Shown: piece after piece, positions 8,773 through 10,502 of the stretch
How positions within the stretch are numbered: position 1 is the first letter of the stretch
How the letters are laid out: each line of letters begins with the position of its first letter
Assembly: GCA_025774205.1 (NCBI GenBank)
Contig: JALGWK010000010.1
Span: 1 to 18,140, forward strand
Source of the DNA: a bacterium
Lineage (GTDB): Bacteria > Blakebacterota > Blakebacteria > Blakebacterales > Blakebacteraceae
Length of the DNA stretch: 18,140 nt
Direction: 5' to 3'
Translations under genes and position numbers: made by a program
The notes under the pieces: generated by a model
What the model was told of the DNA's origin: nothing
Database searches by the model: none
Seen by the model: only the letters and a program-made list of their open reading frames with translations

Positions 8773-9330
8773 TCAGCGTGATCGGGATCTGCCGAACGGG
8801 ATGGTGAGCGTCAACCGCAGGTCGGGCGGGTATCCCCGCCCCGGGGGTGGTTCCACCTCGACCTCGAAGCGGGTTTCATTGTCCCTGAAATCGATGAGGT
8901 GAGCATCCACGAAGGCATCGGCCATCGAATAGAGTATGAAGCCAACGGAGAGCAGGATGCGCTTTTCTCGCCGCTTCCGCCAGAACGCCAGGTCCTCCTC
9001 GGCCTGTTCGTCCCGCCCGGGGACGGCCAGATCCCTGACCCGGCTATCGGCGTGGATCGCCAGGCCGATGATCGTCACATCAGCCAGCATCATGGCCACC
9101 CCTTTGACCGTATAACCGTTATAGATCTGTCCCCACCCGGGCAGGATCGCCGACCGGAGCAGGGCACCGCTCGGGGTTATCACCCTGCCGGTGTCTGAAG
9201 CGGCAGCAGCAGGTTCCTGATCTAATGAGGATTCCGGCACCTGAGCGTGGACCACGGGCAGATCGGCGGAGATCAGCAACATACAGAGGACGAACAGGGC
9301 CGCCGCCGGTTTCGAGTCTCGTGCGCTCAT
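8773..9330 (-). CDS. DUF5683-type small membrane protein with signal peptide
   Basis: The 185-residue product starts at the ATG at 9330, four bases after the stop of the lipid-kinase gene, which suggests translational coupling; the longer frame to 9441 would run into that gene. A signal peptide covers about residues 8-30 (ending VVHAQ). After a short acidic linker comes the family hallmark ALLRSAILPGWGQIYNG (about 54-70), then two hydrophobic segments (KGVAMMLADVTIIGLAI and the ILLSVGFILYSMADAFVDAH region) separated by a charged loop. The tail is beta-rich. DUF5683 proteins are widespread in FCB-group bacteria and have no defined function. A link to the upstream lipid kinase is suggested only by the coupling. 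Confidence 0.78.
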   Translation of the reverse strand: MSARDSKPAAALFVLCMLLISADLPVVHAQVPESSLDQEPAAAASDTGRVITPSGALLRSAILPGWGQIYNGYTVKGVAMMLADVTIIGLAIHADSRVRDLAVPGRDEQAEEDLAFWRKRREKRILLSVGFILYSMADAFVDAHLIDFRDNETRFEVEVEPPPGRGYPPDLRLTLTIPFGRSRSR

Positions 9331-9334
9331 TCTA

Positions 9335-10282
9335 TCAGACGGGGAGGCGGACCTTGAGCGCCCGGGGCCGGCAATGGACCTCGAGTTCGGTCGCACCGGT
9401 CTCATAGATCTCCCCATCACCGTGGAGGAGGATCGGTTCATCGGTTGAAACCCGCACTCGCGGGGATTCGAGCATGGTGATGATCGGAAGGTCTGAATGC
9501 TCCCCCTTCGAGATCACCGGTAGTTTCTTCAGCGCCGTGGGGATCGATACGTTATGGATGATGCAGATCTCGAAGATGCCGTCATCGGTCACCGCGTTGG
9601 GGACCACCCTGAAGCCGCCCCCCTCCCGGGTACCGATGCCGATGGTGAGCATGAAGGTCAGGTCGTCCCGCCGGAAGTCATCGGTCTCCACCTTCATGCG
9701 GATGGCACGGTACATGAAGAGCGACTGGATCACCGTCACCAGGTAGAGGAGGTAGCCCCTGAGCCGCTTGTGGCGACGGCTGTAGACGGTGACCGCCGCG
9801 GCGAATCCGCCGGAGAGGGTGTTGAAGAAGCAGTGCTCTCCGAAAATCCCCACGTCGGACCGTCCCACCACGCCGTTGGAGAGGACGGCGATGGCGCCTT
9901 CGATGTCTTCGGGGATTCCCTGGCTTCCCGCGAAGTCGTTGCCCGAGCCGCTGGGGATCACACCCAGGGCGGCATTGGTGTCCCACATGCCGGTGGCCAC
10001 CTCGTGGACGGTTCCGTCACCGCCGACGGCAACGATGGTGTCGAATCCCTCCCGGGCTGCTTCCCGGGCTAGTTCGGTCGCGTGTCCTTCGGCCTGGGTG
10101 TGGAAGAGAGTGAACTCGAAACCGGCGGCCTTGAGGGCCTCCACGATGCCATCTTCACGCTGCCGGACAAGCCCCCGCCCGGCCACCCGGTTCACGATGA
10201 CGGCCATGGTGCCGACCGGGGTAACTTCCCGCACCCGCTCATACGTCATCTGCACGGGATCGCGTCGGTTCGCCTGGTTCAC
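9335..10282 (-). CDS. Diacylglycerol/sphingosine-kinase-family lipid kinase (YegS/BmrU-like)
   Basis: The 315-residue protein carries the DAGK catalytic domain: a beta-strand start AVIVNRVAGRG (about 27-37), the nucleotide-binding GGDGT (87-91) with TVHEV, and GVIPSGSGNDFA (107-118). The C-terminal half is the beta-rich lid/substrate domain, with the FNTLSGGFAA stretch and a HGDGE motif in the final part. These soluble or membrane-peripheral enzymes phosphorylate diacylglycerol, undecaprenol-like lipids, ceramide or sphingoid bases with ATP. The start is GTG at 10282 with GGAG about ten bases upstream. It sits downstream of a tRNA gene on the same strand and overlaps the control region of the DUF5683 gene. 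The substrate cannot be read from sequence. The SPT-like gene in the window makes a sphingoid or ceramide substrate worth considering, but diacylglycerol recycling is the default. Confidence 0.88.
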   Translation of the reverse strand: MNQANRRDPVQMTYERVREVTPVGTMAVIVNRVAGRGLVRQREDGIVEALKAAGFEFTLFHTQAEGHATELAREAAREGFDTIVAVGGDGTVHEVATGMWDTNAALGVIPSGSGNDFAGSQGIPEDIEGAIAVLSNGVVGRSDVGIFGEHCFFNTLSGGFAAAVTVYSRRHKRLRGYLLYLVTVIQSLFMYRAIRMKVETDDFRRDDLTFMLTIGIGTREGGGFRVVPNAVTDDGIFEICIIHNVSIPTALKKLPVISKGEHSDLPIITMLESPRVRVSTDEPILLHGDGEIYETGATELEVHCRPRALKVRLPV

Positions 10283-10329: not shown

Positions 10330-10427
10330 TGGCGGGGAAAGGTGGGAATCGAACCCACCCCGGACGCTACGAACGCCCGGCAAAAGGCTTTGAAGGCCTC
10401 GGGGGCCACCAGACCCCATCGATCCCC
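10330..10427 (-). tRNA. selC: Selenocysteine tRNA (anticodon UCA)
   Basis: Read on the minus strand, the 98-base gene (95 bases plus an encoded CCA) folds as a tRNA-Sec. It has a six-pair D stem (GGGGTC with GGCCCC) closed by a four-base loop TGGT. The anticodon arm is GAGGC/GCCTT with loop CTTCAAA, placing TCA at 10393-10391. A long variable arm has a seven-pair stem (CCGGGCG/CGTCCGG), and the T arm is GTGGG-TTCGATT-CCCAC. The long D stem, short D loop, UCA anticodon and long extra arm together are diagnostic. The acceptor stem (GGGGATCG with CTTTCCCC, discriminator G) pairs at six of eight positions, with adjacent T-T and C-T mismatches in the middle. Its product would be charged with serine, converted by SelA and delivered by SelB; none of those genes is in the window. 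Confidence 0.87.
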
Positions 10428-10502
10428 GCGCAGCACTCCGATATGAATGAGGCATATTACCCTGAACGACCCGCCAGGTGCAATCTACCCCCGTCCCCTC
10501 AT

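Follow-up and report, generated by a model that had tools for sequence, protein, structure and literature searches.

The window, as we call the whole stretch of 18,140 nucleotides analysed here, carries on its minus strand a selC gene, which ARAGORN reports at 10330-10428 as tRNA-SeC(tca) and which the Rfam covariance model RF01852 matches from 10427 to 10334 (65.9 bits, E 9e-12, against a gathering cut-off of 47 bits), this being the sole RNA family that Rfam detects in the window. All the marks by which a preliminary description, made from the letters alone, had recognised a selenocysteine tRNA are present, namely the six-pair D stem with its four-base loop, the UCA anticodon, the long variable arm and the encoded CCA, and the covariance-model search that it had proposed as a check agrees with ARAGORN. 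Read from 10427 to 10330, the RNA runs GGGGAUCG AU GGGGUC-UGGU-GGCCCC C GAGGC-CUUCAAA-GCCUU UUG and, after this UUG, CCGGGCG-UUCGUAG-CGUCCGG G GUGGG-UUCGAUU-CCCAC CUUUCCCC G CCA, so that the 3' side between the T loop and G73 comprises 13 nt (5 + 8), that is, CCCAC plus CUUUCCCC. The gene does not lie inside a coding sequence, since it occupies a gap of 220 bases that separates the RidA gene from the gene of a YegS-like kinase, all of them on the minus strand. The neighbouring DUF5683 gene, taken from its first listed start, shares about 107 bases with the end of the YegS-like gene, and its true start codon is likely to lie further in.

Table 1. Parts of the selC gene, nearby coding sequences of the window, and genes of the same genome (G000) with an in-frame UGA at the active-site position of a PF00578 domain.
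Feature	Location	Strand	Basis
selC, tRNA-Sec(UCA), 98 nt with encoded CCA	10330..10427	-	ARAGORN and Rfam RF01852
Acceptor stem, 5' strand GGGGAUCG; mismatched bases U5a (10422) and C6 (10421)	10420..10427	-	sequence, pairing
Acceptor stem, 3' strand CUUUCCCC; mismatched bases U67 (10340) and U67a (10339)	10334..10341	-	sequence, pairing
D arm, six pairs, UGGU loop	10402..10417	-	RF01852 alignment, fold
Anticodon UCA	10391..10393	-	sequence, ARAGORN
Long variable arm, at least 7 pairs	10360..10380	-	fold
T arm, five pairs (six with G48:C66)	10342..10358	-	folds
Discriminator G73 and encoded CCA	10330..10333	-	sequence
Precursor leader CGC; until RNase P cleaves, C-1 can pair with G73 and G-2 with C74	10428..10430	-	sequence, fold
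DUF5683 gene, from first listed start	8773..9441	-	
YegS-like gene	9335..10282	-	
UGA gene, peroxiredoxin motif DFTFVU	C355 (G000)		
UGA gene, peroxiredoxin motif DFTFVU (overlapping contigs, counted once)	C164/C225 (G000)		
UGA gene, WUPPC	C364 (G000)		
UGA gene, WMUGAC	C491 (G000)		
UGA gene, PTUGGC	C513 (G000)		
UGA gene, FTUPPY	C461 (G000)		

Six of the eight acceptor pairs are standard, the series from pair 1 to pair 8 being GC, GC, GC, GC, AU, U.U, C.U and GC, and the two central mismatches are just as first described, T-T and C-T at pairs 6 and 7, which in the Sec numbering are 5a:67a (U·U) and 6:67 (C·U), respectively. The phylum sample in which we looked for their counterparts consisted of four genomes, namely that of the window (G000, 86% complete), one of the same genus (G001), one of the same family (G003) and G002 (72% complete). 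A tRNA-Sec was found in three of the four, G000, G001 and G003, all of them incomplete metagenome assemblies (63-86%) from two genera, and no match was found in the 72% complete G002. The selC site is syntenic in G001 and G003, with the order RidA-selC-YegS, where YegS is 79% and 55% identical, and RidA 73% and 60% identical, to the proteins of the window, respectively; the flanks have diverged while the tRNA is nearly invariant across the three genomes. Within the acceptor stem, variation is confined to the two bases opposed at 6:67, and neither change restores pairing, since layers 6 and 7 read U.U C.U in G000, U.U U.C in G001 and U.U U.U in G003. The comparison with relatives that the preliminary description had recommended therefore finds a tandem pyrimidine mismatch at the same layers in both of them, and these aligned sequences indicate that the tandem pyrimidine-pyrimidine mismatch at 5a:67a and 6:67 is a lineage-wide structural trait. 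Each of the three assemblies, 63-86% complete, yielded one tRNA-Sec gene, and a second was not found in any of them.

The uncommonness of this trait was assessed in a domain-wide sample of 386 genomes, 161 of them matching, where the matches were ranked by score and low-scoring variants may therefore be under-counted. From the matches listed, combined with loci found earlier, we parsed 146 distinct tRNA-Sec genes (the parser missed a few loci), 137 of them having eight acceptor positions. Among these 137 genes from the matches listed, pair 7 is mismatched in G000, G001 and G003 and in no other, and pair 6 in this lineage and in one other gene, L019, with a single U.U; in base-pair ensembles of the same 137 genes, only these three keep the outer stem intact with layers 6 and 7 open. 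Pair 8, on the other hand, is non-standard in 69 of the 137 genes, mostly as G.A, so an incompletely paired T junction is ordinary and a bubble at layers 6-7 is not. In the same survey of matches listed, the textbook 8/5 stem often turns out to be seven standard pairs followed by a junction of two purines. The eight standard acceptor pairs of a bacterial tRNA-Sec are incomplete here, with pairs 6 and 7 mismatched in all three genomes, and we do not consider this as excluding, given the frequency of non-standard pair 8 and the acceptance of 7/5 forms (PMC5330540). The 3' strand C-Y-U-U was found in tRNA-Sec of GTDB contigs from the two relatives and otherwise only from Clostridium/Intestinibacter and Megasphaera; this strand alone is not the trait, since in the Megasphaera gene (L055) layers 6 and 7 both form pairs. 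The literature available to us in part yielded no tandem acceptor mismatch in tRNA-Sec, an absence that does not prove such a mismatch to be undescribed.

The leader calls for a separate comment, since the preliminary description had proposed that the three bases ahead of G1 could pair with G73 and the first two bases of CCA, to give the helix GCGGGGA/UCCCCGC as an alternative. This helix exists and begins at G10429, but positions 10430-10428 read CGC and not GCG, and with C-1:G73 and G-2:C74 the leader contributes two pairs instead of three. The CGC ahead of G1 is identical in G000, G001 and G003, but it is not particular to this gene, given that, of 123 selC genes with surveyed leaders, 113 have a C or U at -1 and 29 the combination -2G/-1C; we therefore rejected the leader-extended helix as a special feature. 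At -1, C and U are about equally frequent in selC leaders, so that most selC precursors could form a -1:G73 pair. Cleavage by RNase P should take the leader off, and the leader-paired helix is not an alternative mature structure.

The prediction that this genome decodes UGA as selenocysteine is upheld in silico by the machinery and by the position of the UGA codons. A search for the three partner genes found all of them in G000, namely SelA (C467 + C490, split), SelB (C389) and SelD (C412 + C32, split), and likewise in G001; G003 has SelA and SelD, and no SelB over the cut-off was found in it. SelD has itself an in-frame UGA in the three genomes, in the motif ITRLTALVTCAGUASKLGP of G000 and G001 and ITRLTAMVTCAGUASKLGP of G003, which aligns, with Sec entered as Cys, with the first Cys of AGCGCK in the solved selenide, water dikinase 3u0o (E. 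coli SelD), where this residue is the catalytic Cys. Downstream of this UGA, all three genomes have the hairpin GGUCC-GGM-GGACC. In addition, six distinct PF00578 (AhpC-TSA) genes of G000 have one in-frame UGA each at the active-site position (Table 1), most of them followed by a hairpin no more than about 40 nt downstream, and the same kinds of UGA genes recur in G001 and G003, together with a SelW-like CAVU protein in both. Of the genes in which in-frame UGA had been anticipated, SelD and the peroxiredoxins do have it, but the formate dehydrogenase-like proteins do not: no in-frame UGA was found in the matches to PF00384 (formate dehydrogenase-like/molybdopterin) or PF02662 (FlpD), and both were discarded as selenoproteins. 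Among the predicted selenoproteins are peroxiredoxins whose peroxidatic residue is Sec and several thioredoxin-like proteins that have a UxxC, UxxY or UxxF motif. With SelD, G000 (86% complete) has at least seven predicted selenoproteins, and the gene content suggests that the lineage uses selenocysteine heavily. As a side observation, a cysteine desulfurase-SelD fusion of about 740 aa occurs as L046 (G003:C304) and L047 (G004:C74), with a catalytic Cys and not Sec, as read in L046, and G003 contains this fusion alongside a separate Sec-containing SelD (L051).

Given a conserved mismatch, the presence of selA, selB and selD, the many UGA genes and the failure to find a second selC in these incomplete assemblies, the locus is very probably a functional bacterial selC with a lineage-conserved tandem mismatch, whose expression and charging we infer from sequence; and since only one tRNA-Sec was found per genome, this selC very probably reads all of these UGA codons. 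SerRS would charge the tRNA with serine, SelA would convert it to Sec-tRNA with selenophosphate from SelD, which is itself a predicted selenoprotein, and SelB would deliver the Sec-tRNA to UGA codons with a hairpin downstream. The D arm is canonical in this tRNA, and SelA identity is described as coming mainly from the six-pair D arm, while SelB needs the long acceptor stem (as outlined in PMC7609411).

How this long stem is built in the mature tRNA can be read in two ways. Most likely, the acceptor/T stack would keep the 13 layers that SelB requires, in which five Watson-Crick pairs are followed by one pyrimidine pair each at layers 6 and 7, by G7:C66 and by the five-pair T stem, a geometry that we consider probable, with less assurance than the function of the gene. 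Pyrimidine pairs are narrow but can be accommodated in an A-form helix. The second reading, possible and clearly the less likely of the two, is a strand exchange within the same functional tRNA, where five acceptor pairs remain, C66 pairs with G48, with an added C67:G47 in G001, so that the T stem has six or seven pairs, and U5a, Y6 and G7 become part of a lengthened linker leading to the D arm. In ViennaRNA, G48:C66 has a probability of 0.89-0.99 in all three sequences, versus 0.00-0.11 for G7:C66, nearest-neighbour folding without coaxial stacking prefers the 5/6 form by about 2-4 kcal/mol, and position 67 is always a pyrimidine that could pair with G47. The energy model, however, omits tertiary contacts and also the acceptor/T coaxial stacking, which would favour the 13-layer form, and the 5/7 form loses a variable-arm pair and is no better in G000 or G003. 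Moreover, base 48 is G in 136 of the 137 tRNA-Sec genes surveyed among the matches listed, and being near-universal it is not an adaptation of this lineage, so the strand exchange would not be a designed feature; the SelB of studied bacteria, for its part, is described as requiring a long acceptor stem (PMC7609411). The 13-layer form is thus the one that we keep ahead of the strand-exchanged 5/6 form.

Between a real variant, a pseudogene and an error, the choice that the preliminary description had left open, the evidence comes down in favour of the real variant. A single gene with two neighbouring mismatches, taken from an assembly in 527 contigs and scoring lower in Rfam than most tRNA-Sec genes in the survey, would of course fit a pseudogene, or else a mistake made in sequencing or assembling the acceptor stem, but the mismatches recur at the same two layers and in the same synteny in independent assemblies of two other species, so that three genomes from two genera share them, and the search turned up no other selC in a genome that has selA, selB, selD and many UGA genes; decay or error is therefore very improbable and was discarded. 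Least probable of all is an allo-tRNA or selC-like tRNA inserting serine or cysteine at UGA, an option to which the UCA anticodon and the unusual acceptor arm might point, allo-tRNAs being described as Ser isoacceptors with altered arms (PMC7609411), but of which there is no sign, since the stem lengths of 8 + 5 nucleotides with a five-pair T stem, and not 8/4 or 9/3, led us to reject it, and since this is the sole tRNA-Sec candidate beside a full SelA/SelB/SelD set, with UGA at active-site Cys positions.

This very probably functional selC shares with the canonical bacterial tRNA-Sec (8/5; RF01852, E. coli selC) the D arm, the UCA anticodon, the long variable arm, G73-CCA, the strand lengths of 8 + 5 and a genome with SelA/SelB/SelD, and differs from it in that 5a:67a and 6:67 are both non-standard, which happens together in none of the other eight-pair genes among the matches listed. 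The human tRNA-Sec sequence has U6:U67 next to G7:C66. Eukaryotic tRNA-Sec (9/4) likewise contains, according to the sections of PMC7609411 available to us, a pyrimidine-pyrimidine mismatch 6:67 beside G7:C66, this U6:U67 pair being conserved and yet dispensable on randomisation; the likeness is positional only, and the tRNA described here is of the bacterial 8/5 kind and has the adjoining 5a:67a mismatched too. Natural departures from eight acceptor pairs in Sec-decoding bacteria are also known, with 7/5 (12-pair acceptor/T) stems and bulges in Cloacimonetes and others (PMC5330540, as far as available to us), but in those tRNAs a base of the 3' strand is missing or a bulge is present, whereas here both strands keep eight bases with two pairs mismatched. 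Finally, the allo-tRNAs and selC* tRNA-Cys share the long variable arm (allo-tRNA) and, in some, the UCA anticodon, and have acceptor/T stems of 8/4 or 9/3 in the description of PMC7609411, in contrast with the 8 + 5 found here.

In summary, the structural variant is real and conserved, one step from a known kind of tRNA-Sec. It is conceivable, although rather doubtful, that the tRNA-Sec of this poorly sampled phylum has abandoned the continuous eight-pair stem and that the bubble or the 5/6 stem serves as a recognition feature for its own SelB/SelA, or as a signal for rejection by EF-Tu, in parallel to the eukaryotic U6:U67. A broken-looking tRNA-Sec stem should not be dismissed as a pseudogene without comparison, and this one may offer a scaffold for engineered Sec insertion. 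Bacterial SelB is considered to select Sec-tRNA chiefly by its long acceptor stem, and a tRNA-Sec that conserves two mismatches inside this stem, and that serves a genome where at least seven selenoproteins are predicted, would provide a natural test of helix length versus helix pairing.
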